DNA from: Minicystis rosea
GTDB taxonomy: Bacteria; Myxococcota_A; Polyangia; Polyangiales; Polyangiaceae
NCBI GenBank assembly: GCA_001931535.1
Contig: CP016211.1
Location: 5,129,573-5,193,572, forward strand
Length of the DNA: 64,000 nt
Direction of reading: 5' to 3'
Shown here: piece by piece, positions 15,576 to 64,000 of the stretch
Layout of the letters: every line of letters starts with the position of its first letter
How positions within the stretch are numbered: position 1 is the stretch's first letter
Made by a program: the position numbers and the translations under genes
Notes under the pieces: generated by a model
What the model was told of the DNA's origin: nothing
Database searches by the model: none
Seen by the model: only the letters and a program-made list of their open reading frames with translations

Positions 15576-15976
15576 GGCGAACGTCGTTGCTTTCAGGCCC
15601 TCGATGGGCGTCGGCCCCGCTCACAGCAGCGGTCATGCCAGCCAAGTTCGACGCAGAGCCACAAGAAATCGTCGTAGATCGCAGCGGTTCACCGCGTGCG
15701 CGCACGCTCCACCGCACACCACCACACGATCCGGGCGCCATCCTCCCTCGGAAGCTGACGGCCCCATCGCCACGCAACGTGCATGGCCAAGCGCGCGAGC
15801 TTGTCGAAGCGCTCTCGAGAACGCGTCCGTCGTTTTCGACGGGCCGCGCAAGGGCCGGCGAGCGCCGGCGCAACCGAAAGACCGCTGTCGGCAACGCGAG
15901 CGCCGAGCCTCAGCCCACGCCGTGGCACCCCGGTGACGATCGCGACGGGAAGAGATGACACCGCCTCGCGGCGATC
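15576..15976. other. Intergenic region, nothing recognised
   Basis: About 400 bases crossed by Arg-rich frames on both strands, none with coding character, a signal peptide or a clear start. No repeats or strong hairpins were noticed. Confidence 0.35.
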
Positions 15977-47931: not shown

Positions 47932-49842
47932 TCAATTCAAATCCAAGAACGGCACGTAGACGCCGGCGGCGAGCCCGACGTTGATCGAGCCCTTGTCCTT
48001 CTTGCCGGCGGAGTCGAAGCCGTATTGCGGCGAGTAGCCGACGGTGGCGCCGATCATGAAGGGAAACTCGGTGCCCCAATACGCGCCCAGGGTGACGGAG
48101 GGCGCCAGCGCATCGAGCGGCTCGGGCTTACGCACTTTGCCCCCCTCTTGGTAGGAGAGGTATTGGCCGAGGTCCACCAGCGAAAGCTCGACATGCACGT
48201 GCTTCGCCGCCTGGAGGCCGAAGCCGATGGGCAAGCTGACGGGGCCATAGAATTTCGCCGAGTCCGCGCCGGTCGGGCTGACGCGCGCGCCACCCGCAGC
48301 GCGCAGCGAGCCGCCCAACGAGAAAATCGCGTCGCCGCCGCGGTCACGGCGGTTCGTCATGTCGCGTGTCAACGACTCCAGGATCTTGGTGCGCTGCTCA
48401 TGCTGCGCCTGCGTGGCCTTGTCGTCCTTGGGCGCACTCTTGGTGTATGTCTCCGCATGTTGGAGAATCCCGCCCAGGAGGCGCAGCGCCCGCTGCATGT
48501 CCCGGCGCGTCACGCGCTCGGCCTCGTCGAGCTTCTTCTTCTCCTCGTCGGAAACCCTCCGCCGCTCGGCGATGTAATGGAGGACCACCACGTGCTCCAC
48601 CGCGCGAAACGCGCCGGCCACGACCGTATTGGTGTCTCCCTCGATACCAGCCACCAGCAGCGCCCGAGCCAGCGAAGCCACCTGCTCCGGTTTCGTGATC
48701 TCCTCCGTGGGACTCGCATTCGGCTCGAGCTTGGCCGGACAACGGTGGTCGGCAATCTTGTCGGGCTCGATGAACATGCAGCCCGCGTCGAACGAGGCGT
48801 CGATGGCGTGCCGCGTGCGGAGCTGGACGTCGGATACGCCGTCCCTCGCCGCGGAGAGCGCCTTGATGATGCTGGCCGCGACGCCGCGTGCCGACGCGAT
48901 GCCTTCGGTCGAAGGAAGCGCCATCCCACACCTCTTTTGCAGCTCCTTGCCCATCTGCAACGAGAGCTCGGGCACCGGGCAGGACGTCAGCGCAATCCGA
49001 TCGGGCGGGCTGCTCAACAGCCGACATTTGGCGACCACCGCGCCGGCGAGGAACATCGACGACGTCGCGTCGTTCTCGCAATAAGGCACCTTCTTGCCCT
49101 CCGCCACCGGTCCCTCCAGCTCGCCCACGAGCACTTTGTCGAGCAGGCGAAACACCACATCCTCCGGCACCACCGAGCCTCGCGCCGTCTGGAGCCGGAC
49201 GAGCTCTGGAACGATGAGATCGACGACGATCCGCCGGAGCTCCACCATGCCCTTTTGCTCCCAATCGAGCTTCATCCCCCGCGCCGCCGAGGCCCGCGTG
49301 AGCATGGCCGTGATGGCATCGCCGAGCAGCGCCGAGTAAACGGCGGCACGCGAGGTGGCGACGTCTTGCATCCGCACGGAAGCCACCACCCGGCATGTCT
49401 CCGGAAACCACGTCGGCGGAGCACGCTCCACCACCGAGCCATCGCTCCTCGTCGGGCAGCGCAGCAGATCGAGAATCTTGTCCTGGAGCAGCCGATACGC
49501 CGCCTGCGTGCTCCGATCGACCACGATCTGACCGAGGATCTGCAGCGTCTCGGCCGCAATCTCGTCAGCGCCGGAGACGGGTGAGAACCCTTGGTTTCGC
49601 GCGGTGCCGAGCTCGCCCGCCTGCCCCCTGATCTCGCCGCGATACCGCGTGAGAATGCTCACGGGATCGTGATCGTCGAGCACGCTCGCAGCGATCATCA
49701 CGGGCACGCTCGGCGCACCGGCGGCGGCCGCCCGACAGCTCGTTTGCGCACGCGCCGGGGCCGTGAGCGCGACGGCGGCGAGGATCATCAGCAACGACAA
49801 TGCGGCGGAGATCGGGATCGAGCAGCTCCACCACGGCTGCAT
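47932..49842 (-). CDS. Large secreted protein with C-terminal barrel-like part
   Basis: A 636-aa exported protein. The signal peptide is AALSLLMILAAVALTAPARA; the ATG at 49842 has GGGAGG upstream. The long middle part is helical with nine Cys in pairs (LLRCPTRSD, WFPETCRVVAS, KKVPYCENDA, and others). The last 130 residues, with IFSLGGSLRAAGGARVSPTG, SLPIGFGLQAAKHVHVELSL and NVGLAAGVYVPFLDLN, look like membrane beta-strands, so the end may be an outer-membrane barrel. It is followed on the same strand by no gene and preceded by a small barrel protein (49930). Family unknown. Confidence 0.7.
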   Translation of the reverse strand: MQPWWSCSIPISAALSLLMILAAVALTAPARAQTSCRAAAAGAPSVPVMIAASVLDDHDPVSILTRYRGEIRGQAGELGTARNQGFSPVSGADEIAAETLQILGQIVVDRSTQAAYRLLQDKILDLLRCPTRSDGSVVERAPPTWFPETCRVVASVRMQDVATSRAAVYSALLGDAITAMLTRASAARGMKLDWEQKGMVELRRIVVDLIVPELVRLQTARGSVVPEDVVFRLLDKVLVGELEGPVAEGKKVPYCENDATSSMFLAGAVVAKCRLLSSPPDRIALTSCPVPELSLQMGKELQKRCGMALPSTEGIASARGVAASIIKALSAARDGVSDVQLRTRHAIDASFDAGCMFIEPDKIADHRCPAKLEPNASPTEEITKPEQVASLARALLVAGIEGDTNTVVAGAFRAVEHVVVLHYIAERRRVSDEEKKKLDEAERVTRRDMQRALRLLGGILQHAETYTKSAPKDDKATQAQHEQRTKILESLTRDMTNRRDRGGDAIFSLGGSLRAAGGARVSPTGADSAKFYGPVSLPIGFGLQAAKHVHVELSLVDLGQYLSYQEGGKVRKPEPLDALAPSVTLGAYWGTEFPFMIGATVGYSPQYGFDSAGKKDKGSINVGLAAGVYVPFLDLN

Positions 49843-49929
49843 CGATGGGCCTCCCGCTACTCCATCGCAAAGCGAAGAGGGCATGGATCCTCCACGCCCT
49901 CTTTGCGGCATCGAGGCGCTCATCCGCCG

Positions 49930-50631
49930 TCACATGACATTCTTGCCCACGCGCGTCCCGCCGACATCGAAGCGTCCTTTGAGGCCGGCGAACACGAACG
50001 TGTTGAACGTCCGGTTCTCCAGCACGGCAGACGGACCGCCCGTGCGCCCCAGGAACAGATTCACGTCGACGCCGACCATCGGTGAAATGGCCAGGCTCTC
50101 CGCGGGCCGCACATCGATGCCGAACTCGATCTTGCCGAGCTGCACGCCGTGCAGGATCGACGACGGCGATCCATCGGCCGGCGACTCGACGAACATCCGA
50201 TATCCACCACCGAAGGTGATCGACGGATCGAGCCGCTCATGAGGTGCCAAGTGATAGGTGCTGTGGAGGTCCAGCGTCACACCGCGCAGCGAGGCCGGCT
50301 CCGCTCGCCTCCCGCTCGCGCCATAGCCTTGGTATTGCCCGCCCACGCCGAACGACCAACGCGGGTTGACGCGATCATCGAGGCTCAATCCGAGGGTCCC
50401 GCCCGCGCCGGCGCCCACGCGCGGGTCCGACGTCGCCGAGCCGAAGCCCTGGGTATACCCAGCCTCCAAACCGATCTCGAGCGCCCGGCGCGGCGCCCGC
50501 ACCGGCGTCACCAGCACGTCGCGCGCTCCCTCGTTCAGCGTCACCGGCTCGGCAGGCCGCACATTCTGGGCAAAGGCCGACGTCGTCACTGCGCACACGA
50601 CCGCTCCAACCGCGATAGCCAACGTCTTCAT
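49930..50631 (-). CDS. Outer-membrane beta-barrel protein, OmpW/OmpA-like
   Basis: A 233-aa exported protein: signal TLAIAVGAVVCAVTTSAFA, then repeated amphipathic strands such as LEIGLEAGYTQGFGS, VNPRWSFGVGGQYQGYGAS, LDPSITFGGGYRMFVE and AISPMVGVDVNLFLG. The pattern and length fit an eight-stranded outer-membrane barrel. ATG at 50631 has GAGGGG upstream. It lies on the same strand 87 bases upstream of the large secreted protein gene and may be cotranscribed with it. The long plus-strand frames opposite are shadows. No specific function is assigned. Confidence 0.75.
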   Translation of the reverse strand: MKTLAIAVGAVVCAVTTSAFAQNVRPAEPVTLNEGARDVLVTPVRAPRRALEIGLEAGYTQGFGSATSDPRVGAGAGGTLGLSLDDRVNPRWSFGVGGQYQGYGASGRRAEPASLRGVTLDLHSTYHLAPHERLDPSITFGGGYRMFVESPADGSPSSILHGVQLGKIEFGIDVRPAESLAISPMVGVDVNLFLGRTGGPSAVLENRTFNTFVFAGLKGRFDVGGTRVGKNVM

Positions 50632-50913
50632 GGCGTAGCTCCCCTCACGCACCCATCGCGCCCGTGGGCCGGTTGGGCCTGCCCCGCCCGAGCATCGTGC
50701 ATGCCGCTACGCGCGAGCACATTCTGCCCGCTCGCCGAAAGCCCTCTCGCGCCGACCGAACGAGCGCGTCAATGTCATCGAGCAGGGCGAGCGCTCGTCA
50801 ACCCATGCTCGCTTCCACGACAAGCAACGTCCGCGCTGGCCATCTCCCCGAACAACCAGGCTCGAGCGCCCACTGCCGAGCTCCCCCGCCCCTTCACACG
50901 CAATCGGCAGCGC

Positions 50914-52302
50914 TCACTTGCATTGCGCCGCGCGCACGAGGCTCATGAACGCGTGGGGCCCGAGCCACGCCCCATGATCGTAGTAATCGTAATTGCGGTT
51001 GATGCCGGTACCTTCCCCGAGATCATTCCATGTACCGAACACCGCTACATCGGAAGCCGCCGAGGTCTCCAGCGCCTTGATCAAGAGCTCTGGGCCCTTC
51101 ACGACCCGGTCGCTCTCGGTCGCGATCTCACCGGGGTGATCGCGCCCCAGCGAATCCCACCGGACCATGAAGTGATCGTGGGTCACATCCTTGATCTTGT
51201 AGTGGCTCTCGTGACCGAAGGTGTTCCAGGTGAACTCCGAGTCTGCCACCGCCGGCATCCCAGGGTCCTCGAAGAAGGCGCGATCCACCGCGACGAAGGG
51301 CTCGACCCCGAAGTCGGCGGCGAAGAGCTGCTTGAGCCGCGAGACCACGCCCGCTGCCGCATTCAAAGGCTTCAGCGTACCGGCATTGTAGAAATAGAGG
51401 AAGGGACGCCCCTTGACCAAATACCAATGCTCTTGCGGAATGGCTTGGTAGAACCGCCTCCACTTCGCTTGATAAATCGTCTGCGCCGCGGCATCCGCAT
51501 CGGACAGATTCGGCACCGAGCTCCACGGCGGCGGCTGGTCCGAGCGCCAAGACCACGTATCGTCCAGAAAAGCGATCTTGATGCCCCCACCGACGTCGGC
51601 GAGCGCCTCGGTCAGCCGGCCGAGCCGCTGGAGATCCGGACCATAGGTGTTGACCAGCAGGAACTGCAGGCCCGCCCAACGGGCATCGACGAGCTCGCGC
51701 TTCCAGAAGCCGGCATTGTCCGGGTGGTAATACCCCTCCGCCGCTTCGCCGAAGCCATAGAGCCGATGGGGCGAATCCATCCCCCGCACGTGGGTGTTGG
51801 CCCAATCGAGGTCGCAGTTCACGCCGCCCGGGCACTCGCTGAAGAACATCAGCACGGCGCCCACGTCGCGCGTCGTCTTCCGCTCGCACGGCGTCGTCAG
51901 AAGCACCTGCTCCTTCCAAGGATCGGTGTAGGCGAGCGGGCAGCTCTTCCCCGCGTCATTGCAGAGGATGCGCACCACGTCGATGCGCCGGACCCATTCG
52001 TCGTTGCGGAGCTGATCGGAAAAGCTCGAGACCAGATCGGGGCTCGGCTCCGTGCCATGGATCTGGCAATGCGCTGCCCGCACGAAGGCCTCGGGCGCGT
52101 GGCCGAGGTTCACGTCGATCGTCGCCCTCGCCTCACAAGGCCCTTCATATTCCGGAACGAGCTCGAACTCGGTGTTCTCGGGAAGGTCTTTGGGAGGCTC
52201 GGTCGGACGGAGATCGTCCGTGGGATCATACGATCCCTTCGAGCAACCGGAGAACAAGGCCAGCGAAAGGGCGAACGAGCAGAAGGGTACGGCAGCGCGC
52301 AT
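50914..52302 (-). CDS. Glycosidase-like lipoprotein (DUF5010/GH71-GH99-like), copy A
   Basis: A 462-aa lipoprotein (signal ALSLALFSGC). The body is a barrel-like fold with segments IDVNLGHAPEAFVRAAHC, VLMFFSECPGGVNCDLDW, LQFLLVNTYGPDLQRL, IKIAFLDDTWSWR and, near the end, VFGTWNDLGEGTGINRNYDYY. That last motif recalls the WND/E-GE signature of GH71 alpha-1,3-glucanases and GH99-type enzymes, and the general layout resembles DUF5010 proteins. A paralogue is at 54538. It ends 281 bp before the next gene and starts three bases after a carbohydrate-binding-like lipoprotein gene, with which it forms a two-gene unit. Enzyme activity is inferred. Confidence 0.72.
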   Translation of the reverse strand: MRAAVPFCSFALSLALFSGCSKGSYDPTDDLRPTEPPKDLPENTEFELVPEYEGPCEARATIDVNLGHAPEAFVRAAHCQIHGTEPSPDLVSSFSDQLRNDEWVRRIDVVRILCNDAGKSCPLAYTDPWKEQVLLTTPCERKTTRDVGAVLMFFSECPGGVNCDLDWANTHVRGMDSPHRLYGFGEAAEGYYHPDNAGFWKRELVDARWAGLQFLLVNTYGPDLQRLGRLTEALADVGGGIKIAFLDDTWSWRSDQPPPWSSVPNLSDADAAAQTIYQAKWRRFYQAIPQEHWYLVKGRPFLYFYNAGTLKPLNAAAGVVSRLKQLFAADFGVEPFVAVDRAFFEDPGMPAVADSEFTWNTFGHESHYKIKDVTHDHFMVRWDSLGRDHPGEIATESDRVVKGPELLIKALETSAASDVAVFGTWNDLGEGTGINRNYDYYDHGAWLGPHAFMSLVRAAQCK

Positions 52303-52305
52303 CGC

Positions 52306-53055
52306 TCACTCCAAGAAGGCTACGTCATCGATGGTGAAATCCCACGCGACCGCGTCCTTGGAGGTCCAGTTCAGGCCGACGATCGCCTTCGTATCGAGCT
52401 TCGTCTTGTCGCCCCAGCCGAGCTGCTTCAAGTCCGACCACTTGATGTCGTAGGTCTTCGCGTCCTTCGACAGGTTGGTGATGGCGATCATGAAGTGGTC
52501 GTAACACTTCTTGCAGCGGCCGAACTCGGGCATCGTGTCCACCGTGGCCACGAGGAACTTCATCGGCGTAGAGCCGGAGGCCTTGAAACGAATGCCCTTG
52601 AACTTCGTCGCGTCCACGGGCGTGAGCAGCGGCGCGCCGCACAGGTTCGTGCCGATCCCCCCACCCCACTCCGTGTAGCCTTTGCCCCACGTGTGGATGG
52701 CCCCGTTCTCGATCGCTTTGGTGAACTCTTCGACGGAGGCCGGCTGTTTCTTGCCTCCGGTCTTGTCGCTGTACACGAACCAGCTCCCCGGAGGCTCGAT
52801 GTTGGGGAGGTTGGAGATGCCCGCGCCGTCCCAAATCATGGCGCCGGTCGGCACCACTGGATCAGGGACGGGCATGTCACTCTTGCCCGCGGCCGGCTTC
52901 GCGTCCACGGCGGCAGTGGCGCCGTTCGACGTGGCATTCTTGCAGTCGCACGGCGGACACGGCTTCGTGGCCCCTTGAGGGCCGATACAGCCGATGCCCA
53001 GACCGCCGACGCACACGAGAAGCCCAGTCGCAAAACGAGCAGCGAAGTAGCGCAT
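52306..53055 (-). CDS. Jelly-roll (CBM-like) lipoprotein A
   Basis: A 249-aa lipoprotein (signal GLLVCVGGLGIGC) with a Cys/Pro/Ala-rich linker (PCPPCDC). The body has a jelly-roll pattern: AMIWDGAGISNLPNIEPPGS, TKFKGIRFKASGSTPMKFLV and the end VAWDFTIDDVAFLE. The last strand, xDxxIDxVxF, is shared with the proteins at 53715 and 56034. This fits a CBM11/CIA30-like carbohydrate-binding fold. It is the first gene of the minus-strand arm and lies three bases before the glycosidase-like copy A. Confidence 0.75.
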   Translation of the reverse strand: MRYFAARFATGLLVCVGGLGIGCIGPQGATKPCPPCDCKNATSNGATAAVDAKPAAGKSDMPVPDPVVPTGAMIWDGAGISNLPNIEPPGSWFVYSDKTGGKKQPASVEEFTKAIENGAIHTWGKGYTEWGGGIGTNLCGAPLLTPVDATKFKGIRFKASGSTPMKFLVATVDTMPEFGRCKKCYDHFMIAITNLSKDAKTYDIKWSDLKQLGWGDKTKLDTKAIVGLNWTSKDAVAWDFTIDDVAFLE

Positions 53056-53714
53056 ACCTGACTCACATCACGTTGCGTGATTGTCCACGTGGAAGCCGAA
53101 CCTACGTACCATGCGCTCACGAGCGGCCCCAAGAGAAATAGTAGGCAAACCGAGTCGTTTACTACGTCGTTTACCGCGCGGGCCAATCGTCTCGCAGGGT
53201 GCCTCGACGCACGCGCGCTCGGATCCCGATCGAGGCACCGACTCTCCGCCGGATCGATCTTCGCAGCTCGGGTGGAATGCCCTCGTCCCATCGGATCTCA
53301 TCGGTCCTCGCGAACGGCTCCCGATCAGTAATCCAGGGCACGAAAACGCCGCACCGCCGGCCCGCGACCACAGCCGATCTCGCCGCCGATGCCGCGCCGA
53401 TCCCTTCGTTGCCTTCGTGTGTTTCGTGGCTTGAACCGTTAGGCCCAGGCGGACAGCGCATGAGATGATCGGTTGGGCTTCACGGCCTGAACGGGCGACC
53501 AGCGCCTTGAAGAGCCTTGAAATGCCGCATCGCGCGATGTTCACGATGCTCGTTTACCATTCGCGCGAAACACAGCGATTCATGCGGCATGCGAGTAAAC
53601 ACGGAGAGTTGACCATGATTCACATTGACGGTCCGTATCGAGTTGTTCGAATCTGGACACGACCCGGTCACCACATCGACTTTCTCTCGTACTCGCAAGG
53701 AACGGGGCAAGACT
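53056..53714. promoter_or_regulatory. Divergent control region of the glucan locus with GTTTAC motifs
   Basis: A 659-bp region that must carry promoters for both arms. GTCGTTTAC occurs twice in tandem at 53154-53162 and 53166-53174 (12-base period). A further CTCGTTTAC lies at 53549-53557 and a GAGTAAAC, its partial inverse, at 53593-53600. The pair GTAGGCAAAC (53141-53150) and GTTTACTAC form an imperfect dyad. Four such hexamers are more than expected by chance at this GC content. They are candidate operators for a regulator that is not in the window. No gene was seen inside. Confidence 0.55.
53401..53433. repeat. TTCGTTGCCTTCGTGTGTTTCGTGGC-type intergenic repeat
   Basis: The plus strand reads TTCGTTGCCTTCGTGTGTTT followed by CGTGGCTTG. 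I recall similar CACGAAACACACGAAGG repeats between genes in several bacterial phyla, but have not searched. It lies inside the divergent control region and has lower GC than its surroundings. Another low-GC repeat is at 62597. Confidence 0.4.
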
Positions 53715-54521
53715 ATGAAGCCTAATCATGCGTTGCACGTGTCCATCTTCACCGTTGGTTGCGCGTTGTCGCTGATGACCGCGTGCTCGTCGGGCACGGC
53801 CAGCCCCACCGGCGGCGCCGGCGGCACTGACCCTTCCACGAGCAGCGGTACCACCACCAGCAGTGGCACCACCACCTCGAGCGGCACGACCACGAGCAGC
53901 AGCAGCACCGGCGGCCCGTCCAAGCCCAGCGTCTGTGACAACAACGTTCACGAGCGGACCATCGACGACGCGTTCATCGACGACTTCGAGACCGACACGC
54001 AGTTCGGCGGTTGGTACTCGTTCGCCGACACCACCACCATGACGCCGATCGCGATCGCGGACGGCGGCGCCACGACGACGGCCAAGTCCGCGCACGTGCT
54101 CGCGAGCGGCATCAAGGCGCCCACCGCCGGTGGCTTCGGGGCCGGCTTCGGCTTCAACCTGAAGGACTCCGCCGGTGCCTGCGCCGGTGTCTCCGCATTC
54201 GACGGCGTGTCCTTCTGGGCCAAGGGTACCGCCGGCGCCGACAACGCGCTCAAATTCCAAGCCGTCGTCGCGGCCACGCAGGCGAAGGCCGACGGCGGCG
54301 ACTGCGAGAGCAACTGCTACAACCACCCTGGCAAGACCGTCACGCTGACCGCGGATTGGAAGCAGTACACGCTCAAGTGGAGCGAGCTCGCCGGCGCCGT
54401 GAAGGTCGAAGGGCTCCTCCTCGGCATCAATTGGATCACGCCGGGCCCCGACTACGACGTGTACATCGACGAGGTCACGTTCTTCTCGGGCACCGCTCCG
54501 ACCGGCCCTGTCGGCAAGTGA
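53715..54521 (+). CDS. Jelly-roll (CBM-like) lipoprotein B
   Basis: A 268-aa lipoprotein (signal FTVGCALSLMTAC) with a Ser/Gly/Thr linker holding three SSGTTT units. The body starts ERTIDDAFIDDFETDTQFGG and has FDGVSFWAKGTAGADNALKF and an end YDVYIDEVTFFSG. It is the same fold type as the proteins at 52306 and 56034. Two Cys close together (GDCESNCYN) may form a disulphide. ATG at 53715 was preferred over an upstream GTG. It is the first gene of the plus-strand arm, 16 bases before the glycosidase-like copy B. Confidence 0.78.
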   Translation: MKPNHALHVSIFTVGCALSLMTACSSGTASPTGGAGGTDPSTSSGTTTSSGTTTSSGTTTSSSSTGGPSKPSVCDNNVHERTIDDAFIDDFETDTQFGGWYSFADTTTMTPIAIADGGATTTAKSAHVLASGIKAPTAGGFGAGFGFNLKDSAGACAGVSAFDGVSFWAKGTAGADNALKFQAVVAATQAKADGGDCESNCYNHPGKTVTLTADWKQYTLKWSELAGAVKVEGLLLGINWITPGPDYDVYIDEVTFFSGTAPTGPVGK

Positions 54522-54537
54522 CGTCACGAATCGGCCC

Positions 54538-56037
54538 ATGAAGACAAGAAACAACGCGGCCGGCTCGGAGCAACCGACCTTCATCGGGCCGGCCGCGCTG
54601 GTTCTCGGCCTCATCGGCGCGGGTTGCTTCGATCAGCGGGTGAGCCCCGTGGAGGCTCGCCCCATGGATTCGGCGGTCGTCCAACCGGTAACACCGGCGA
54701 CAGCGGCGACGGGAGCAAGACCCATGAACACTCCCCCCATCGACGAATCGGATCTCGGTCCCTTCAAGCTCAAGCCCGAGTGGACGGGCCCCTGCCAGCG
54801 CGCGGACGTCGTCGACGTGAACCTCGGTCATGCGCCCGAGATCTTCGTGCGCGCGGCCCACTGCCAAGTGACCGGCAAAGAGCCGAGCCCCGACCTCGTG
54901 AAGACGTGGGCCGAGAAGCTCCGGGCGAAGCCGCGCACCCGCCGCATCGACGTGGTGATGTCGCTCTGCGCCGACGAGAAGCGCACCTGTCAGCTCTCCT
55001 ATTCGGACCCTTGGGAAAACCACCCCGAGCTCGGCACCGGTCCCGTCAAGAAGGTGAAGCGGGACATCGGTGCCGTTTGCATGTTCTTCTTCAATTGCCC
55101 TGGAGAGGTCAATTGCAAGATGGACTGGGCCAACACCCACTCCCCCGGCATGGCGAAAGAGCACCCGCTGCTCGCCTTCGGTGCGCAGAAGGCCGGCTAT
55201 TACGTGCCCACGCACCCAGGCTTCTGGCGCCGCGAGCTGCTCGACGCCAAGTATGCGGGCCTCGACTTCCTGCTCCTCAACACCTACGGCCCCGACATCG
55301 AGAACGGCAAGCTCAAGCCCTTGGCGGACGCCTTGGCCAGCGTCGAAGACCCGGTCAAGATCGCCTTCTTCGACGACACGTGGACGTGGGGGCAACCCTA
55401 TTTCAGCCCGGCGTGGAAGCAGAAGCCCGATCTCGACGACACCGAGGCCGCCGCCAAGCTCATCTACGGGATGAAGTGGAAGCCCTTCTTCTCGCAGATC
55501 GACAAGCGCCACTGGTATCGCTTCAAGGGCCGGCCCTTCATCTACTTCTACAATGCGGGCACGCTCCTCCCGCGCACCAAGTCCTCCGCGCTGCTCGCGC
55601 GGCTCAAGGCGATGTTCGTCGCGGACTTCGGGGAAGAGCCGTTCGTCAACGCCGACTCCGCCTACTTCGAGGATCCGGCCATGGAGAAGGTGGCGGACGC
55701 TCGTTACCAGTGGTTCACCTTCAACAGCCCCGAGCGCCGCAGCCGCTCGACGCTGAAGGGCCACGTCATCGATCATGCGATGGTCAAGTGGGACGCGGTC
55801 GGCCGCGATCGCCCGGGCCAGCTCCCCCGCCAGACGGATCTCATCATCAAGGACGCCAGCGTCTTCACGCGCGTCCTCGACGAGACACGCGACTCCGAGC
55901 TGCTCGTGATCGCGACCTGGAACGACCTCGGCGAAGGCACCGGCCTGAACCGCAACTACGACTACTATTTCCACGGGCAGTGGCAGCGGCCCGATTACTT
56001 CATGCAGCTCATCCGAAGATCGCAGAGCGGACTATGA
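54538..56037 (+). CDS. Glycosidase-like lipoprotein (DUF5010/GH71-GH99-like), copy B
   Basis: A 499-aa paralogue of the protein at 50914, with matching segments VVDVNLGHAPEIFVRAAHC, AVCMFFFNCPGEVNCKMDW, LDFLLLNTYGPDIEN, VKIAFFDDTWTWG and IATWNDLGEGTGLNRNYDYYF. The N-terminus has a long leader and the hydrophobic run LVLGLIGAGC, a lipobox near residue 30. It overlaps the next gene by four bases (ATGA). Conserved Asp/Glu positions shared with copy A (DDTW, FEDP, WNDLGEG) are candidate catalytic residues. The likely role is alpha-glucan cleavage at the cell surface, from context only. Confidence 0.72.
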   Translation: MKTRNNAAGSEQPTFIGPAALVLGLIGAGCFDQRVSPVEARPMDSAVVQPVTPATAATGARPMNTPPIDESDLGPFKLKPEWTGPCQRADVVDVNLGHAPEIFVRAAHCQVTGKEPSPDLVKTWAEKLRAKPRTRRIDVVMSLCADEKRTCQLSYSDPWENHPELGTGPVKKVKRDIGAVCMFFFNCPGEVNCKMDWANTHSPGMAKEHPLLAFGAQKAGYYVPTHPGFWRRELLDAKYAGLDFLLLNTYGPDIENGKLKPLADALASVEDPVKIAFFDDTWTWGQPYFSPAWKQKPDLDDTEAAAKLIYGMKWKPFFSQIDKRHWYRFKGRPFIYFYNAGTLLPRTKSSALLARLKAMFVADFGEEPFVNADSAYFEDPAMEKVADARYQWFTFNSPERRSRSTLKGHVIDHAMVKWDAVGRDRPGQLPRQTDLIIKDASVFTRVLDETRDSELLVIATWNDLGEGTGLNRNYDYYFHGQWQRPDYFMQLIRRSQSGL

Positions 56038-57350
56038 AGGGCGGATATCGGCTGGCAGGGGCCGCGCTCTGTGTCGCGGCCGCGTGCACCAACGGTGGAA
56101 ACGTCGGCCGCGTCGGGCTCGCGGACGGGCTCGCCGCGGCCGTTCCCTGGGCCAACGGCGCCATCGCGCAACGGAACCCCGATGGCACCTTGATCACCCC
56201 AGCCGAGCCCGTTTTCCCGCCGATCCGGACCGATACACCGGATCCCGGCTCGCATCCCATCGATTGCAGCCGGCTCGATGACATCGAGCTCTCGCCTTTC
56301 TGGATCGAGACGTTCGAGCCCGATCCCAGCTTGGCCGATGGGTGGGGCGTGGGCGAGGCCTGGTCCGCCTACGACGACGAGACCTATGGCGCGTTCCGCG
56401 TGCCCGGCGACGCCGCTTGGTATCCAGGGCTGTTCGGGCGCTACAAGGAGAAATGGGGCCTCGCGGCGGACCGCATCAAAGATGGTCCGAGCTGCGATGG
56501 CAAGCCGAACCAATGGGCGCTCCATGCCCGCGGCGGTCGATTCAACTACTTCGGCGCCGGCCTCGAGCATCCTTTCGCGGCCATCGAAGCATGTCCCTCC
56601 GGCTCGGATTTCTGCCCTCCGCCACCGGAGCCCGGCTCGAAGACGGACTCGGTGGGTTTCCCGCTCACGCGTTCCGACGGCCACGACTACGAGCAACCGG
56701 AGCCTCACCGCTATTGGGATCTCAGTCGTTACGACGGTATCACGCTCTGGGCGCGACGCGGCCCGGACAGCCAGCCCGGCGTGCTCGTGGCCTTGCACGA
56801 CAAGCACACGAGCGACGCGCTCAACCGCGAAAACCAGACCTTCTGCCGCCGCATCAAGACCTGTCGGCTCGACTGTCAGAACGGCCTGCCCTGCAGCCCG
56901 GAGAACCCCGACGCCCCCAAGCCGACCTTCCGCTGCTTCGATCCCAACCAGGGAATGGCGCCGATCCCCGAGCCGGCGGAGATCGAAGAGGTCTATCCCG
57001 TCTGCGGCCCGAGCGCGTGTCGCTCGCCGGACTACTACTACGATCGCGATCTCGATGGCACCGAGTGCAAGCCCTACGAGTTCTCGGGCACCTCGTCCGC
57101 ATACTACTGCTACGGCGACGAGCCGCCGCCCACCGAGGCGGAGCGCTGCGGCGACGGGTGGGTCGCGCCCATCCACCTGAGCACGGATTGGCAGATCTTC
57201 GTCCTCCCCTTCAGCGAGTTCCGTCAGGTCGGCTTCGGCAAACGGGCGCCGTTCATGGATCTGCACTCGATTTACATGATGGCCATTCAGCTCCCGGTGG
57301 GCTTCGCCGACGTGTACATCGACAACGTCACATTCTATCGCCGCCGCTAA
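56034..57350 (+). CDS. Cys-rich jelly-roll lipoprotein C
   Basis: A 438-aa lipoprotein with signal LAGAALCVAAAC. The body begins with a jelly-roll-like FWIETFEPDPSLADGWGVGE, a central insert with many Cys pairs (FCRRIKTCRLDCQNGLPC and others) and the same type of end (ADVYIDNVTFYRRR) as the proteins at 52306 and 53715. It may thus be a larger carbohydrate-binding module with an extra Cys-stabilised loop. It starts by ATGA overlap with the glycosidase-like copy B and is followed after eight bases by the first barrel gene. Confidence 0.7.
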   Translation: MKGGYRLAGAALCVAAACTNGGNVGRVGLADGLAAAVPWANGAIAQRNPDGTLITPAEPVFPPIRTDTPDPGSHPIDCSRLDDIELSPFWIETFEPDPSLADGWGVGEAWSAYDDETYGAFRVPGDAAWYPGLFGRYKEKWGLAADRIKDGPSCDGKPNQWALHARGGRFNYFGAGLEHPFAAIEACPSGSDFCPPPPEPGSKTDSVGFPLTRSDGHDYEQPEPHRYWDLSRYDGITLWARRGPDSQPGVLVALHDKHTSDALNRENQTFCRRIKTCRLDCQNGLPCSPENPDAPKPTFRCFDPNQGMAPIPEPAEIEEVYPVCGPSACRSPDYYYDRDLDGTECKPYEFSGTSSAYYCYGDEPPPTEAERCGDGWVAPIHLSTDWQIFVLPFSEFRQVGFGKRAPFMDLHSIYMMAIQLPVGFADVYIDNVTFYRRR

Positions 57351-57358
57351 GAGATCCG

Positions 57359-59053
57359 ATGAGACAGCTCCCCAAACTGGCAGCGCTCGCGTGGACTCTG
57401 TTCGCCATGGCAGCAGCCAAGCCGGCGGAGGCGCAGAATCCACCGACAACCGCGAGCACCGCAGATCCCGCGGCCAAGCCACCAGCGGCACCGGCGCAGC
57501 CCGCGCCTACCAACGGCTCTCCGGCCAAGGCCGATCCCCCTGCCGAGCCCATCACACCGGCGTTGCCTCCGCGCGGCTACATCCCCGGCTCACGCCGCTC
57601 GGTCGGGCTCGGCCTCTCGCCCTATGCCCCGAGCGGGCCCAGCTTGCCCGGCGGCGTGACGATTCCGTTCGCCGGCCCGGAGGACGAGAGCAGCGAGTTC
57701 AAATTCAAATTCAGCGGCTACATGAGCGCGGCGCTCCGGCTCTCGTCCGGCCATCGCGACAAGCCCACGAAGGATCAATACGAGGCCACGTTCCTCGCGC
57801 CCCCGCGCACGCCCGACATCTACGGCGCCACGCTCGGCACCAACGCGCCGCAGGGCAGTTGGGTGGAGCTCCGCTTCGACTACGGCAACGCCAACGTCAA
57901 ATCGGTGGTGAAGATCAGCACGTGGAAGCCGACGGCCGGTGAGACCTGGCGCGAGAACAGCAGCCAAAACTTCGTCAACGAGGCCTTCCTGGTCTTCACG
58001 CTGCCCACCATCGCGGACTTGAGCGTCAATTGGACGGTGGGCGCCTTCCGCAACTCGTATGGTCCTCTCGGGCAATACGGAGCGGGCCAATACAACGCCG
58101 CCATCATCGGCTCGCCGTTCGGCGTGGGCGAGACGCTGAGCGCCAAATACCGGCTCTCGAGCTCGTTCTCGCTCGTCGCCGAGCACGGCTTCATGGGGCG
58201 CTTCAACAAAGTCCCCATCGGCGCCGGCCCCGTCGTCTACGACCACGACGCCAACCCCTCCAAGCCTTCGGGCTTCGTCCACCACGCCCACCTCGGCTTC
58301 ACCATCGACGGCGAAGTCCCCTTCGTCTTCGGCCTGCACCTCCTCCAGAACTTCGCGCAGGACGAGCGCGATCAAATCGACGATCCCAAGACGCCGTTCA
58401 TCAACGAAGGCCGCCGCCCCGACGCGAGCATGAACGTGTACGGCGCCGACTTTCGCATGCTCAACAACTACCTCGGCAACTTCGCGCTCGCCGCGTCGTA
58501 CGCCGACGCGACCTACGCGCAGCTCTTGACGGGCATGAATTATTACGGCGCGGACACCGGCGAGCTCCTCACGAAGCGCCTCCTCGGCCAGCAGGGCGGC
58601 GGCACCGGCAAGCTCCTCATCGCCGGCTTCGAATACAACTTCAGTTGGGCGAAGTTCCTCTGGTACCCAGAAGCCTATTGGGGCGAAGGCCCCGATCTCG
58701 TCACCAGCGTGTTCGCCAACGTCGCCTCCGTGGTAGAGAGCAAAGATCCGAACTTCGACGGGCGCACGCTCTACAAGGTCGGCACCGAGATCACGTATCG
58801 CTGCCTCTCCTGGCTCGCGCTCTCCGGTCGCTACGATCACGTCTCGCCCAACTCCAAGGACAAACGGGAGAGCTTCGACGTCATCAGCCCCAAGCTCATC
58901 TTCCGGAGCGACTGGAACAGCCACGAGCAGGTCACGCTCAGCTACACGCGCTGGTTCTACGGCAAGCACACCCACGGTGAAGCGCCGAACGACTACACGC
59001 ACGAGGAGCTCGATAACCAGATGTTCGCTCTCAGCTTCGGGATGTGGTGGTGA
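57359..59053 (+). CDS. Porin-like outer-membrane protein 1
   Basis: A 564-aa exported protein: signal LAALAWTLFAMAAAKPAEA, then a long Pro/Ala linker to about residue 75, then strand-like segments (SSEFKFKFSGYMSAALRLSS, GSWVELRFDYGNANVKSVVK, FSLVAEHGFMGRFNKVPIG). It ends MFALSFGMWW, an aromatic C-terminus typical of barrel proteins sorted by the Bam complex. A paralogue follows directly. No TonB box or plug was seen, so a passive or oligosaccharide-specific channel is plausible. Two bases separate it from the next gene. Confidence 0.78.
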   Translation: MRQLPKLAALAWTLFAMAAAKPAEAQNPPTTASTADPAAKPPAAPAQPAPTNGSPAKADPPAEPITPALPPRGYIPGSRRSVGLGLSPYAPSGPSLPGGVTIPFAGPEDESSEFKFKFSGYMSAALRLSSGHRDKPTKDQYEATFLAPPRTPDIYGATLGTNAPQGSWVELRFDYGNANVKSVVKISTWKPTAGETWRENSSQNFVNEAFLVFTLPTIADLSVNWTVGAFRNSYGPLGQYGAGQYNAAIIGSPFGVGETLSAKYRLSSSFSLVAEHGFMGRFNKVPIGAGPVVYDHDANPSKPSGFVHHAHLGFTIDGEVPFVFGLHLLQNFAQDERDQIDDPKTPFINEGRRPDASMNVYGADFRMLNNYLGNFALAASYADATYAQLLTGMNYYGADTGELLTKRLLGQQGGGTGKLLIAGFEYNFSWAKFLWYPEAYWGEGPDLVTSVFANVASVVESKDPNFDGRTLYKVGTEITYRCLSWLALSGRYDHVSPNSKDKRESFDVISPKLIFRSDWNSHEQVTLSYTRWFYGKHTHGEAPNDYTHEELDNQMFALSFGMWW

Positions 59054-59055
59054 AC

Positions 59056-60651
59056 ATGAAGAAGCACCTCGTTTCATGCCGAGCGGCGGCGCGTGGTCTC
59101 CTCGGGGCGATGCTCGCCCTGCCCTTCTTCGCGAGCACCGCGCGCGCGCAGCAGCAACAGCCGCCGAACGAAGCGACCGCCGCCGCTGCGGCCGCCGCGC
59201 AACAGCAGCAGCAGGACGCGGGCCTCGGCCTCACCCCGGGCACGCCCGTCGTCGGCACCCTCCCCGGCGGCTTCGCGCCCGCATACGGCCTCAGGCCCAA
59301 GGAAGAGAGCGAAGGCGGCTTCCAATTCGACTTCCACGGCCTCATCACCATGCCGCTCCGCGTGGGCTTGAACTCGCGCGCCGGCGTCGTGACGACGGAG
59401 CAGAAGAACTTCGTCATCCACGCTCCGCCGGTCGTCCCCGACTACCCCGATTCGCCCGGATACACCGCCGTCGTGCCCCAACCGTACGTGCAGCTCGCCT
59501 TCTCGTACGGAAACCCGATCGTGACCGGCACGGCCATCATCAAGGCGTGGACGGCCACCACCGCCAACAGCTTCTTCGATCCCACGCTCCAAGGCGGCAT
59601 CACCGACGCATTCATCACCTTCAACATCCCGACCCTGGCCAAGAGCGCGCACATCTCCATCAACGTAGGCGCCTTCTCGAACCGCTACGGGACGATGGGC
59701 GAGTACGACGAAGGCCACTACGCCACACCCATCATCGGCCGCACCAACGGCGTGGGCGAGAACGTCATCGCTCGCTTGGCGCTCGGTGATTGGGTGCTCG
59801 CCTTCGAGCAGGGCTTTCAAGGGCAGCTCGACAAAACGCCGATCGGCCTCACCTCCGATGGTTGGAATGGCTTTGCCGATCCCAACACGGGCACCAGCCT
59901 GGTGATGCACGAGCACCTCGGCGTCACCTACCGGCGCCAGCTCACCTTGGGCCTGCACCACATGTTGGCCTGGAGCCAAGACGACCGCGCCGCCCAAGCC
60001 TTCACGCCCGATGGATCCATCACCGTGCTGGGCGCCGATCTCCGCTTCTCCGGCAGCCACATCGGCCATGCCTATCTCGGCGCCTCGTACACGATCGCGA
60101 ACGACGCACGCTCCGTGGGCCGCATCCTCTCCGTGATGAACACGCAGGGCGGCGCCGATCTCATGCGCAACTACCTCGGCCCCGACAGCGGCGGCAACGG
60201 GAAGATTCTCACCATCGGCGCCGAATACGGCGTGAGCCTGGCCCGCCTGCTCCTCTATCCGGGCGACTTCGACGGCAAATCACGGGACATCGTGCTCTCC
60301 GCCTTCGGCATCTACTCGCGCGTCGCCAGCGAGGATGTGAAGTACAATGGGGACAACAAGATCAGGTTCGGCGCCGAGGGCAGCTACACACTGGCCTCTT
60401 GGTTCGCCGCCTCGGGCCGCGTCGACCACGTGCGGCCGACGAGCAACGTCGATGGACGCGAGTTCACGATCCTTTCCCCCCGGTTGATTTTCCGCACGGA
60501 CTGGCAAGCGCGAAACCAAATCGTGCTTCAATATTCGCGGTACATCTACGGTTCGAATCCGATCGTCCGGAGCGGTTATCCGGCGGTCGACGATCCCAAG
60601 CTCAAGCCCGACGAGAACATGGTCTCGCTCTCCGCGAGCATGTGGTGGTGA
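59056..60651 (+). CDS. Porin-like outer-membrane protein 2
   Basis: A 531-aa exported paralogue of the previous protein. The signal is GAMLALPFFASTARA, followed by a Gln/Ala-rich linker with two poly-Gln runs, then strands such as GGFQFDFHGLITMPLRVGLN and VQLAFSYGNPIVTGTAIIKA, ending MVSLSASMWW. The shared end and order suggest a gene duplication. Lies two bases after porin 1 and three bases before the GH87 gene. The pair may form a hetero-oligomeric channel for glucan oligosaccharides, which is inference. Confidence 0.78.
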   Translation: MKKHLVSCRAAARGLLGAMLALPFFASTARAQQQQPPNEATAAAAAAAQQQQQDAGLGLTPGTPVVGTLPGGFAPAYGLRPKEESEGGFQFDFHGLITMPLRVGLNSRAGVVTTEQKNFVIHAPPVVPDYPDSPGYTAVVPQPYVQLAFSYGNPIVTGTAIIKAWTATTANSFFDPTLQGGITDAFITFNIPTLAKSAHISINVGAFSNRYGTMGEYDEGHYATPIIGRTNGVGENVIARLALGDWVLAFEQGFQGQLDKTPIGLTSDGWNGFADPNTGTSLVMHEHLGVTYRRQLTLGLHHMLAWSQDDRAAQAFTPDGSITVLGADLRFSGSHIGHAYLGASYTIANDARSVGRILSVMNTQGGADLMRNYLGPDSGGNGKILTIGAEYGVSLARLLLYPGDFDGKSRDIVLSAFGIYSRVASEDVKYNGDNKIRFGAEGSYTLASWFAASGRVDHVRPTSNVDGREFTILSPRLIFRTDWQARNQIVLQYSRYIYGSNPIVRSGYPAVDDPKLKPDENMVSLSASMWW

Positions 60652-60654
60652 CCT

Positions 60655-62529
60655 ATGCCCCGACGTTCGATGGATGAGCGCTTCGCGAAAAGGCCTCTCA
60701 CCTCGGCCCGCGTGATGGGGGCTTTGGCGGCGGCCAGCATGCTCGCGGCATGCTCGTCGACCCCCGCGACCACGACGAGCGGTGAGCCCACCGGAACGGG
60801 CGGCCACGGCGGCGTGGGCGTCGGTGGCCATGGCGGTCAGGGCGTCGCAGGGCACGGCGGCCAAGGCACGGGCGCGGGCACGAGCAGCAGCACGGGCACC
60901 GGCGGCGAGCCCACGATTCCCTCGGGCGGCGGCGCGGCCGCGCCCTTCGTCGAATACGAGGCCGAGTCGATGGAGACGAACGGCGTCGTCATCGGCCCCT
61001 CACGCACCTTCACGGAAGTCGCATCCGAAGCGTCGGGCCGGCGCGCGGTCAAGCTCACCAAGGTCGGCGACGACGTTCATTTCAAGAGCACGACCCACGC
61101 GAACTCCATCGTCGTCCGCTACTCCATCCCCGACGGCGGCAACGATTATTGGGTGACGCTGGGCGTGTACGTCGACGGCCAGCTCCGTGGCCGCCTCTCG
61201 CTGACCTCGCGCTATTCGTGGACCTACGGCAACCACGATCACTTCAACCAGCCCGATCAAAACAACGCTGGGCTCGGGACACCGCATCACTTCTTCGACG
61301 AGTCACGCGCGCTCATCGGCGACATCCCCGAAGGGGCCACCGTGATGCTGCGCAAAGACGGCGAGGACATGGCCTCCGAGTACGTCATCGATCTGGTCGA
61401 CCTGGAGTACGTCGCACCGCCGCTCCCCAAGCCCGATGGCTTTCTCTCTCTCACCGATGATTGCGGGGGCACGCCCAACGACGCCACCGACGACTCGGAC
61501 GCCCTGCAAAAGTGCATCGATCGCGTGCAAGGCGAAGGCCGGCCCGGGCTCTATCTGCCGCCCGGCGAGTTCCGCAGCATCAGCAAAGGCCTCAGCACCT
61601 CGAACATCACCATCCGCGGCGCGGGGATGTGGCACACCACCATCTCGGGCTTCTTCGCCCGCTTCGATTGCTGGGGCAACAACTGCCAGTACTATGACTT
61701 CTCCGTCTTCGGCGACACCATCCAGCGCAAGGACGACTCGCCCGAGAACGCCTTCGGCGGCAACGGCAGCTCCGGCACGCGGCTCGAGAACATCTGGATC
61801 GAGCACGCCAAGGTCGGTTATTGGACGGGCCCGGACACGAACGGTCTCACGATCACCCACTGCCGCATGCGCAACCTCTTCGCCGACGGGGTGAACTTCT
61901 TCGGCGGTACCAGCAATTCGCTGGTCGAGTACACCCACGCGCGCAACACCGGCGACGACGCCTTCGCGTCCTGGTCGCCGGCCGATCACGCGCCCAACCG
62001 CAAGAACGTCTTCCAAAACAACCTCGTCCAGGTGCCGTGGATGGCGAATTGCTTCGGCATCTACGGCGGCGAGGACACCGTCGTTCAAGACAACGTGTGC
62101 GCCGACGTCGTGCAGTATCCCGGCATCCTCATCGCCCGACAGTTCAACTCGACCCCTTTCACCGGGACGACGCACATCGATCGCAACTCCCTCATCCGCG
62201 CCGGCGGCTCCGCCTACGATCAACCCCACGGCGCCTTGAAGCTCCACGCCGCCCAAGGCCCGCTCCAAAACCTGCGCATCGGCGATCTCGAGGTCATCGA
62301 CCCGACCTATTCAGGCATCCACGTCGAAGGCCCGGGCACCATCGACAGCGTGTGGTTCGACAAGGCAACCATCAAGCAGCCCAAGACAGCCGCCTTCCAC
62401 CTGAGCCCCAACGCCACCGGCGCCATGGACGCCGCCAACGTTGCCGTCACCAACGCTCCCCAGGGCGTGCTCGACGAGTCGGGCGGCAAGTTCAAGATCC
62501 TCGTCGGCGCCGGCAACACCGGCTGGTAG
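60655..62529 (+). CDS. GH87-type mycodextranase/alpha-1,3-glucanase lipoprotein
   Basis: A 624-aa lipoprotein (lipobox near AAASMLAAC) with a Gly/His linker, a CBM35-like jelly roll (VEYEAESMETNGVVIGPSRT, WVTLGVYVDGQLRGRLSLTS) and a right-handed beta-helix catalytic domain. Diagnostic segments are DDCGGTPNDATDDSDALQKC, NITIRGAGMWHTTISGFFAR, FADGVNFFGGTSNSL and ARNTGDDAFASWS (D434/D435), followed by FGIYGGEDTVVQDNVCADV. These agree with GH87 enzymes (nigeran or mutan hydrolases), with both Asp pairs kept. It is the last gene of the plus-strand arm and faces the GH31 gene. Substrate is alpha-1,3-linked glucan by family. Confidence 0.85.
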   Translation: MPRRSMDERFAKRPLTSARVMGALAAASMLAACSSTPATTTSGEPTGTGGHGGVGVGGHGGQGVAGHGGQGTGAGTSSSTGTGGEPTIPSGGGAAAPFVEYEAESMETNGVVIGPSRTFTEVASEASGRRAVKLTKVGDDVHFKSTTHANSIVVRYSIPDGGNDYWVTLGVYVDGQLRGRLSLTSRYSWTYGNHDHFNQPDQNNAGLGTPHHFFDESRALIGDIPEGATVMLRKDGEDMASEYVIDLVDLEYVAPPLPKPDGFLSLTDDCGGTPNDATDDSDALQKCIDRVQGEGRPGLYLPPGEFRSISKGLSTSNITIRGAGMWHTTISGFFARFDCWGNNCQYYDFSVFGDTIQRKDDSPENAFGGNGSSGTRLENIWIEHAKVGYWTGPDTNGLTITHCRMRNLFADGVNFFGGTSNSLVEYTHARNTGDDAFASWSPADHAPNRKNVFQNNLVQVPWMANCFGIYGGEDTVVQDNVCADVVQYPGILIARQFNSTPFTGTTHIDRNSLIRAGGSAYDQPHGALKLHAAQGPLQNLRIGDLEVIDPTYSGIHVEGPGTIDSVWFDKATIKQPKTAAFHLSPNATGAMDAANVAVTNAPQGVLDESGGKFKILVGAGNTGW

Positions 62530-62596
62530 GCCTGTCCGAGGACACGGCAATGGTCGGCGCCCTCGCCGATCCGTGCTGCTGCGCTCCCGGAATTTC

Positions 62597-62641
62597 AACG
62601 CGAAGTCGCAAAGACGCAGAGACGCAAAAAGGCGCAAAGAG
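62597..62641. repeat. GCAAAGACGC-type intergenic repeat
   Basis: AACGCGAAGTCGCAAAGACG followed by CAGAGACGCAAAAAGGCGCAAAGAG: an A/G-rich low-GC tract with an irregular 9-10-base period of GCAAAG and GACGCA. I recall similar GCAAAGACGCAGAGACGC tracts between genes in several phyla, but have not searched. It lies between the convergent GH87 and GH31 genes. Confidence 0.45.
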
Positions 62642-62795
62642 CTTGGCTCGGCGCGCCCAGGAGGCGTTGCACAGCGATCGAAGCACGGCACGCGTGCGAC
62701 GCTGCGAGCCGGCGTCGTGGATGACACCGGCTCGCGCCGCTTCATGGCGATTGCCGGAGCCGTCGTGATGACCGACACCGGCATGGATGGTGGGC

Positions 62796-64000
62796 TCACA
62801 TCAGTTGGGCGCGCACCGAGCGATCTTCGAGCGAGAGACCGAGCGTGAAGCTCTCGGCGCGATTCGCGATCTCGACGACGCCGTTCTCGACGCGCAGGGA
62901 GCGGCCGTCGAGGGTGATGTCCCGGCCCTTGAAGCCATGGAGCACGAGGCGCAGCGCGCTCCTTCGAAACTCGGGGAAGCCTTGGCCCGTCACCGTCGCC
63001 GTCATCGTGATGGAGGCGCCGCGCCGAACGACTCGGAACGTCGTGCGGTAATAGGCGCCGCGCGCAAAGGCCTTGGTGAGCCCGTCGTCCTCGTGCAGCT
63101 CGGAGACGAGCTCACCATCTTCGTCGGGGATGAAGACGTGGAGCACGAGGAGCTCCGGCGCGTATCCCATCGTCGACTCGGGGGCCGTCGCATACGCCGG
63201 GACGACATAGCCCCCGCGCGCGAACATCGGAATCCGCGAGAGCGGCGCCTCGACGTTGATGAAGCGCCCGCCCGTGTGGCGCTCGCCGGTGTACCAATCC
63301 TCCCACGTGCCTTCGGGGAGGTAGACCCGGCGCGATCGGCACCCGGGCTCGACGACCGGAGCGACCAAGAGCGCGTCGCCGAGCAGATAGGCGTCCTGCG
63401 TCTCCCGCGCGCGGCGATCGTATTGAAAGTCGTACACGAGCGGCCGTTGGATGGGGTCGCCCGACTCGCTCGCGTGGAAGAACGCGCTGTAGAGATAGGG
63501 CAACAAGCGATAGCGAAGCTGCAGCGCCTCGCGACAAATCTCCTCGATCTCGGGGCCGAACGACCAAGGGTATTGATCCGGCTCACCCCAGTGGTTGTGA
63601 TTGCGGCAGAAGGGCGTGAGCGCGCCGCACTGGGTCCAGCGCGCGGCCAGCTCCGCCGTGGGCGCCGAGACGAAGCCGGGGATGTCGGCGCCGATGAACG
63701 GCTGCCCCGAAATCCCCATGGCGAGCGCCATGGGAATGCTCATCTCCAGATGGTCCCAATTCGAGCAATTGTCGCCGAGCCACTGCGCCGCGTAGCGCTG
63801 AATCCCGGCGGACCCGGCGCGGCTCAGGATGAAGGTGCGCTGATCGGGCGCGGTCTCGGCGAGACCGGCCACCGTGCTCATGGCCATGAGAAGCGCATAT
63901 TGGTTGTGGTAACGCTCGTGCGGGTGATTGGCTCCGTCGCGATCGAAGCGCATCGCGAAGGGCTCGACATCGCCCGTCGCCGGCTCGTTCATGTCGTTCC
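62796..64000 (-). CDS. GH31-family alpha-glucosidase, 5' part outside window
   Basis: The C-terminal 400 residues of a GH31 glycosidase; the gene continues beyond 64000. The catalytic nucleophile is in NDMNEPATGD right at the window end, and the acid/base Asp is in RYAAQWLGDNCSNWDHL. The start of the beta-sandwich domains follows, including YLPEGTWEDWYTGERHTGG and FARGGYVVPAY. GH31 covers alpha-glucosidases, alpha-xylosidases and related enzymes; in this locus an alpha-glucosidase for oligosaccharides made by the GH87 enzyme is likely. It is convergent with the GH87 gene, 266 bp apart. Signal peptide cannot be judged. Confidence 0.9.
   Translation of the reverse strand, partial: NDMNEPATGDVEPFAMRFDRDGANHPHERYHNQYALLMAMSTVAGLAETAPDQRTFILSRAGSAGIQRYAAQWLGDNCSNWDHLEMSIPMALAMGISGQPFIGADIPGFVSAPTAELAARWTQCGALTPFCRNHNHWGEPDQYPWSFGPEIEEICREALQLRYRLLPYLYSAFFHASESGDPIQRPLVYDFQYDRRARETQDAYLLGDALLVAPVVEPGCRSRRVYLPEGTWEDWYTGERHTGGRFINVEAPLSRIPMFARGGYVVPAYATAPESTMGYAPELLVLHVFIPDEDGELVSELHEDDGLTKAFARGAYYRTTFRVVRRGASITMTATVTGQGFPEFRRSALRLVLHGFKGRDITLDGRSLRVENGVVEIANRAESFTLGLSLEDRSVRAQLM

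Follow-up and report, generated by a model that had tools for sequence, protein, structure and literature searches.

How could a myxobacterium live on an insoluble alpha-glucan and carry the products across its outer membrane? The question is raised by a gene cluster at the right end of a 64,000-nucleotide stretch of the giant genome of Minicystis rosea, a soil myxobacterium (contig CP016211.1, positions 5,129,573 to 5,193,572 of the forward strand; hereafter the window), in which an earlier note, made from the letters alone, had placed a candidate locus for alpha-glucan degradation and uptake. The cluster seems to encode everything needed to cut alpha-1,3-glucan outside the cell and to import the products through sugar porins and an ATP-binding cassette (ABC) pump, not through a SusC/SusD system of the Bacteroidetes type. 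We consider it likely that the cluster serves alpha-1,3-glucan utilisation in Polyangiaceae as a single regulon, in which surface digestion would be followed by porin passage, ABC import and cytoplasmic hydrolysis.

Gene content and conservation of the cluster

All the genes named by the earlier note are present, and the open reading frames of the window give the same spacings on the plus arm (16, -4, 8, 2 and 3 bases). The features in the window, including glycoside hydrolases (GH) and jelly-roll (JR) lipoproteins related to a carbohydrate-binding module (CBM), are as follows.

50914..52302, minus strand: DUF5010 lipoprotein a, 462 aa (Pfam PF16402), predicted surface endo-alpha-glucanase
52306..53055, minus strand: JR1, CBM11-like jelly-roll lipoprotein, 249 aa
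53144..53163, minus strand: operator-like palindrome of the JR1 promoter (AGTAAACGACTCGGTTTGCC), kept upstream of Polyangium JR1
53594..53614, plus strand: operator-like palindrome of the JR2 promoter (AGTAAACACGGAGAGTTGACC), kept upstream of Polyangium JR2
53715..54521, plus strand: JR2, CBM11-like jelly-roll lipoprotein (ATG at 53715; mechanical open reading frame from 53625)
54538..56037, plus strand: DUF5010 lipoprotein b (Pfam PF16402), predicted GH71/GH99-type TIM barrel
56034..57350, plus strand: JR3, larger jelly-roll lipoprotein of the JR family
57359..59053, plus strand: PorA, predicted outer-membrane sugar-porin-like barrel (homology to PorB, family comparison)
59056..60651, plus strand: PorB, predicted outer-membrane barrel of ~18 strands (AlphaFold2 model, Foldseek)
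60655..62529, plus strand: GH87 lipoprotein of the alpha-1,3-glucanase / mycodextranase family (Pfam, PDB match)
62796..64000, minus strand: C-terminal part of a GH31 alpha-glucosidase, the full gene reaching 65264 in window-extended coordinates

The GH87, GH31 and DUF5010 assignments are each backed by a Pfam profile match, and a Pfam scan of the cluster proteins found no SusC, SusD or TonB protein, which supports the non-Sus architecture proposed earlier. The companion claim, that no transporter of a known glucan system is present, turned out to be an artefact of the window edge, because an importer operon starts ~140 bases beyond the GH31 gene. In the next 20 kb past the window end we found the following genes; position 6857 of the stretch named L008 is 68857 in window-extended coordinates.

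65406-66527, minus strand: MalK-type ATPase with OB and TOBE domains, UgpC subfamily above cut-off
66763-67836, minus strand: GntR-type regulator that joins a GntR DNA-binding domain to a periplasmic-binding-like sensor
67987-68853, minus strand: MalG-type permease
68857-71259 (L008:6857-9259), minus strand: solute-binding protein fused to a MalF-type permease (SBP-MalF), 800 aa
L008:9592-11523 (genome 5201164-5203095): Ser/Thr kinase fused to a LacI-like sensor
L008:13481-14605 and 15054-15905: divergent pair of fibro-slime (PA14-like) lipoproteins with an operator between them

The importer has the components of the CUT1 (MalEFGK-type) class, namely SBP_bac_1, two BPD permease domains and a MalK with OB/TOBE. 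A separate solute-binding protein is lacking at the locus, as binding protein and MalF permease form one protein in M. rosea and likewise in Polyangium, an unusual layout for an ABC system. The MalK, MalG and SBP-MalF genes are all kept in Polyangium.

The neighbourhood is conserved in relatives, and the cluster is linked there. Thirteen genes (JR1, DUF5010a, JR2, DUF5010b, JR3, PorA, PorB, GH87, GH31, MalK, the regulator, MalG and SBP-MalF) are syntenic in four of the five Polyangium genomes searched, with 64-94% protein identity; in the fourth genome the stretch read ends inside DUF5010a, with JR1 outside it. Clustering is hence far beyond chance given this synteny. The fifth genome has no cluster and only a cellulose-type porin. 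The divergent layout holds in M. rosea and fails as a general trait, since the JR1-DUF5010a pair of Polyangium is co-oriented with the other arm; its inversion relative to M. rosea indicates a separate transcription unit.

Among the 284 Myxococcota genomes sampled, relatives of the DUF5010 protein P0004 were found only in M. rosea. A scan across 84,980 species genomes added three species of Polyangium, all of them among the four with the cluster. As the DUF5010 and GH87 cluster was seen only in M. rosea and Polyangium, "Polyangiales-wide" is too broad, and a Polyangiales-wide DUF5010 was rejected given the rarity in these distribution searches. A GH87 gene in a second genome is solitary, with no porin, DUF5010 or ABC genes nearby, and therefore GH87 by itself does not imply a system of the M. 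rosea type.

The kinase sensor domain is close to that of the GntR-type regulator (~76% to the Polyangium regulator), and the kinase was not found at the Polyangium loci, where one fibro-slime copy lies directly upstream of SBP-MalF. A small lipoprotein gene (MNSSRTNKLASIFSTL...) occurs in near-identical copies ~5 kb apart (L008:17585-18172 and L092:2814-3404). Left of the cluster, two minus-strand genes at 47932-50652 of the window encode apparently secreted proteins of 663 aa and 240 aa.

Enzymes of the cluster and their probable substrate

The GH87 product matches CatAgl_D1 (5.2e-41) and CatAgl_D2 (3.5e-32), both above the Pfam cut-offs. Its top PDB matches are alpha-1,3-glucanases, the best solved relative being 7c7d (1e-67), and it retains the catalytic aspartate trio (D411, D434 and D435) at the spacing of 23/24 shown by the catalytic D1045/D1068/D1069 of Agl-FH1. 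The GH31 protein is 822 aa in full length, without a signal peptide; it matches its family at 2.4e-120 with the full GH31 architecture in Pfam, and carries the nucleophile motif WNDMNEP (D424).

The two lipoproteins sharing TWNDLGEGTG are indeed paralogues (51% identical), and both belong to DUF5010 (PF16402; 1.6e-10 for a and 1e-14 for b). Paralogue a is 75-78% identical to its Polyangium orthologs. A D-x-x-E dyad is present as NDLGE in both (D427/E430 in a, D463/E466 in b); according to the literature, E-x-x-E (EWHE) marks GH99 and D-x-x-E (DYGE) marks GH71. A weak profile alignment sets DLGE opposite the EWHE of GH99-like proteins. An AlphaFold2 model of paralogue b, built from eight sequences at moderate confidence (pLDDT 64.7, pTM 0.68), is closest in Foldseek to GH99 endo-mannosidases (7.4e-8), followed by the GH71 alpha-1,3-glucanases Agn1 (8yfh; 3.7e-7) and AnGH71C (9fnf; 6.9e-5), with other folds lower. 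A second structural comparison gave Z 14-15 for GH99 and Z 14.0 for Agn1 (root-mean-square deviation 3.8, 248 aligned), other TIM-barrel families scoring only slightly below.

Neither family takes in these proteins outright. The EWHE dyad of GH99 is missing, though GH99 structures rank first in Foldseek. The Glyco_hydro_71 profile gives no match above cut-off (the DUF5010 proteins P0001 and P0004 match only DUF5010 in Pfam), and the C-terminal beta-sandwich of fungal GH71 is missing, the chains stopping 32-33 residues past the dyad glutamate; for these two reasons we do not file them as GH71. A direct sequence search against the PDB returned nothing useful. From the model and the dyad, the pair is best assigned to the GH71/GH99 superfamily, with a dyad of the GH71 type. 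Canonical GH71 candidates were also considered and dropped: the M. rosea genome has no PF03659 match, and all five PF03659 matches in the phylum carry the GH99-type EWHE motif.

Linear alpha-1,3-glucan is the most likely substrate, with nigeran or mixed alpha-glucans possible. As a less likely alternative, the same machinery might serve nigeran (alternating alpha-1,3/1,4-glucan), the mixed alpha-1,3/1,6-glucan that occurs in bacterial biofilms, or some other alpha-glucan. The family literature places mycodextranases within GH87 too, the nearest solved relatives of GH31 include broad alpha-glucosidases and the candidate GH31 alpha-glycosidase 6jr6, and the two DUF5010 paralogues may split linkages between them, whereas the best GH87 matches are alpha-1,3-glucanases and the DUF5010 dyad is of the type found in GH71 alpha-1,3-glucanases.

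Envelope proteins, operator and predicted regulon

The paired barrel noted earlier is confirmed as a pair, PorA and PorB being 37% identical; PorA has a signal peptide and ends in WW. The low-confidence AlphaFold2 model of PorB (pLDDT 46) has 18 predicted strands, with the sucrose porin ScrY (3.3e-5) and maltoporin (4.9e-5) as top Foldseek matches; the porin sequences, searched directly against the PDB, had no match. Judging from this model, PorA and PorB look like sugar-porin-like barrels.

A profile of 25 JR members matches the CBM11 of endoglucanase H (1v0a, 5.4e-7), and the relation is distant, because only one of the 25 matches Pfam CBM_11; JR3 shows a weak CIA30 match below cut-off. JR2 is 64% identical to its Polyangium counterpart. 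In Myxococcus xanthus, lysine after the lipobox cysteine is an inner-membrane signal and alanine at +7 an extracellular-matrix signal (PMC3222651). Lysine never follows the cysteine in the cluster lipoproteins (DUF5010 a, with lipobox FSGC, has serine there), which makes an outer-membrane location plausible, and the proteins may be exposed at the surface. JR1 has alanine at +7, a point in favour of the idea that the locus recycles the cell's own alpha-glucan-containing matrix or spore coat. That idea is very improbable in our view, as the alanine is found in only one of the lipoproteins, the cluster holds no synthase, and most relatives lack the cluster.

The units of the locus seem to share an operator. 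Copies of an imperfect palindrome, RGTAAA-N7-9-TTKRCC, precede JR1, JR2 and SBP-MalF, another stands between the two fibro-slime genes, and GH31 is preceded by a copy with one mismatch; these positions are kept in Polyangium, some with one mismatch. The 16 Mb M. rosea genome has 12 sites, four of them in the cluster locus, and a reversed control pattern has 13 matches and none in the locus; cluster-bearing Polyangium has three of its 8-9 exact genome-wide sites upstream of cluster units, and the cluster-less Polyangium genome has three sites, none of which is a cluster-unit site, these counts being partly circular because the pattern was defined after some sites had been seen.

A non-circular check is provided by a palindrome at 11,868,063, ~130 bases ahead of a gene ~6.7 Mb from the cluster:

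L088:2213-3307 (genome about 11868212-11869306): DUF4380 lipoprotein gene

In P. fumosum an ortholog (77%) of this gene adjoins JR1 in divergent orientation, and a second Polyangium likewise has the ortholog at its cluster. The operator before the units in both genera, together with the DUF4380 ortholog inside the P. fumosum cluster, points to one predicted regulon. We set aside other M. rosea matches, which fall close to a signalling gene, to a metalloprotease and to an IS66 element. Further Polyangium matches look like chance: two share one region close to an asparaginase-like gene, and a third falls in a nonribosomal peptide synthetase region.

These elements suggest the following course. 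The GH87 endo-glucanase and the two DUF5010 glycosidases would cut the insoluble polymer as surface lipoproteins, while JR1-JR3, probably aided by the fibro-slime lipoproteins, would keep it bound to the cell surface. Nigero-oligosaccharides may then pass the paired barrels PorA and PorB, be captured by the binding domain of SBP-MalF, and be imported by the MalK/MalG ABC transporter, after which the cytoplasmic GH31 would cleave them to glucose. The GntR-type regulator of the transporter operon would act as the sensor and probably binds the palindrome before each unit.

Myxobacteria are predators, and the enzymes could instead be mainly weapons, predatory or lytic, aimed at fungal walls, and sugar uptake would come second. 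We find this improbable: a Gram-negative GH87 does remove alpha-1,3-glucan from the fungal wall (PMC10696023), but the dedicated ABC importer, the cytoplasmic GH31 and the porins share operator and synteny with the enzymes, which argues for a catabolic design.

Some points do weigh against alpha-1,3-glucan utilisation by a single regulon. Since GH87 takes in mycodextranases and GH31 is broad, the families do not fix the linkage of the substrate. The porin model is of low confidence and Pfam has no family that matches the barrels; four of the palindrome's sites had been seen when its pattern was defined, which leaves the DUF4380 site and the counts in Polyangium as the independent evidence. The literature search found no characterised DUF5010 member, and a GH71/99-superfamily relative in a Prevotella GH87 locus was inactive on yeast cells (PMC13421300). 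On balance, the earlier proposal of alpha-glucan degradation and uptake is well supported by the enzymes, the CBM11-like lipoproteins, the sugar-porin-like barrels, the synteny and the operator, while activity on alpha-1,3-glucan itself stays a prediction.

Related loci and known systems

The porin family is present in 23 of 145 Polyangiales genomes. Among 20 porin loci sampled irrespective of their neighbours, 11 have a glycoside hydrolase nearby (GH9, GH48, GH5, GH6, GH1, GH10, GH94, GH15-like or arabinofuranosidase; Pfam), and two more a sugar ABC transporter or a CBM11/CIA30 lipoprotein. Polyangiaceae have a median of ~111 GH genes per genome (PMC12093494), and a rough estimate from this median, not made per genome, expects a GH by chance in ~1/6 of such stretches. 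Elsewhere in Polyangiales, homologous porins adjoin enzymes for cellulose, xylan, arabinan and cellobiose, and JR-type lipoproteins recur next to the cellulose porins. For instance, an M. rosea cellulose locus near 3.87 Mb (L050, genome 3867000-3886999) combines GH48, GH9, GH5, GH1 and CBM3 with a homologous porin and a CBM11-like lipoprotein; among Polyangiaceae, GH48 occurs only in M. rosea and P. fumosum (PMC12093494). The same locus also encodes a GGDEF response regulator and a histidine kinase whose sensor domain is LacI-like. A protein family, B2, recurs beside cellulose porins (L050:11536-12954, L051:8274-9851 and homologues), without a Pfam match in the members scanned; kinship of B2 with PorA was ruled out (hhalign probability 0.9).

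The cellulose loci resemble the alpha-glucan cluster in that a homologous porin and CBM11-like lipoproteins adjoin lipoprotein glycoside hydrolases, and differ in their cargo (GH9, GH48, GH5, GH6 and GH1) and in having a single porin with a second, unrelated envelope protein. Homologous porins beside enzymes for other polysaccharides suggest a general design independent of SusCD. We see an even chance that Polyangiales have such a general architecture, made up of a Pfam-unknown porin family (paired in tandem at some loci), surface lipoproteins of the CBM11-like type and a changing set of lipoprotein hydrolases for cellulose, xylan, arabinan or alpha-1,3-glucan, and that at the M. rosea cluster DUF5010 represents, within the GH71/GH99 superfamily, a new family of inverting alpha-1,3-glucanases.

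In its transport logic, the locus is closest to the E. coli mal and Klebsiella cym systems, which join an outer-membrane sugar porin, a CUT1-type ABC importer with MalK and a cytoplasmic alpha-glucan enzyme. M. rosea would match these with its predicted porin-like barrels, importer and enzyme; it differs in the surface endo-enzymes and binding lipoproteins for insoluble polymer, the fusion of binding protein and permease, and two tandem barrels that belong to no Pfam porin family. The closest enzyme set is that of the predicted mutan locus of Prevotella melaninogenica (GH87, GH97 and GH71/99-like; PMC13421300), which likewise joins a lipoprotein GH87, a GH71/GH99-superfamily enzyme with a DYGE-type dyad and an alpha-glucosidase. 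That locus has a SusR-type regulator, a TonB-dependent transporter, SusD and GH97, whereas M. rosea has paired porin-like barrels, CBM11-like lipoproteins, an ABC importer and a cytoplasmic GH31 in place of GH97. The GH31_u1 (strict alpha-1,3-glucosidase) clusters for nigero-oligosaccharides in Lactococcus and Lachnoclostridium (PMC9061262) likewise combine LacI-type regulation, an ABC importer and an intracellular GH31 acting on alpha-1,3-gluco-oligosaccharides, the M. rosea GH31 being assigned at the level of the family; they differ in being Gram-positive and in having no outer-membrane parts or DUF5010.

The combination seen in M. rosea was not found in the literature searched, most subscription journals lying outside that search. 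Outer-membrane uptake of products from insoluble polysaccharides appears largely undescribed in myxobacteria, and the same literature held no paper on such loci. The predicted regulon would provide a concrete, testable pathway, point out two families, one of porins and one of surface lipoproteins, that the cellulose loci have too, and offer a candidate function for DUF5010, in a superfamily for which no characterised bacterial GH71 is reported (PMC13421300). As alpha-1,3-glucan occurs in fungal walls and dental biofilm, its degraders may also be of practical interest.

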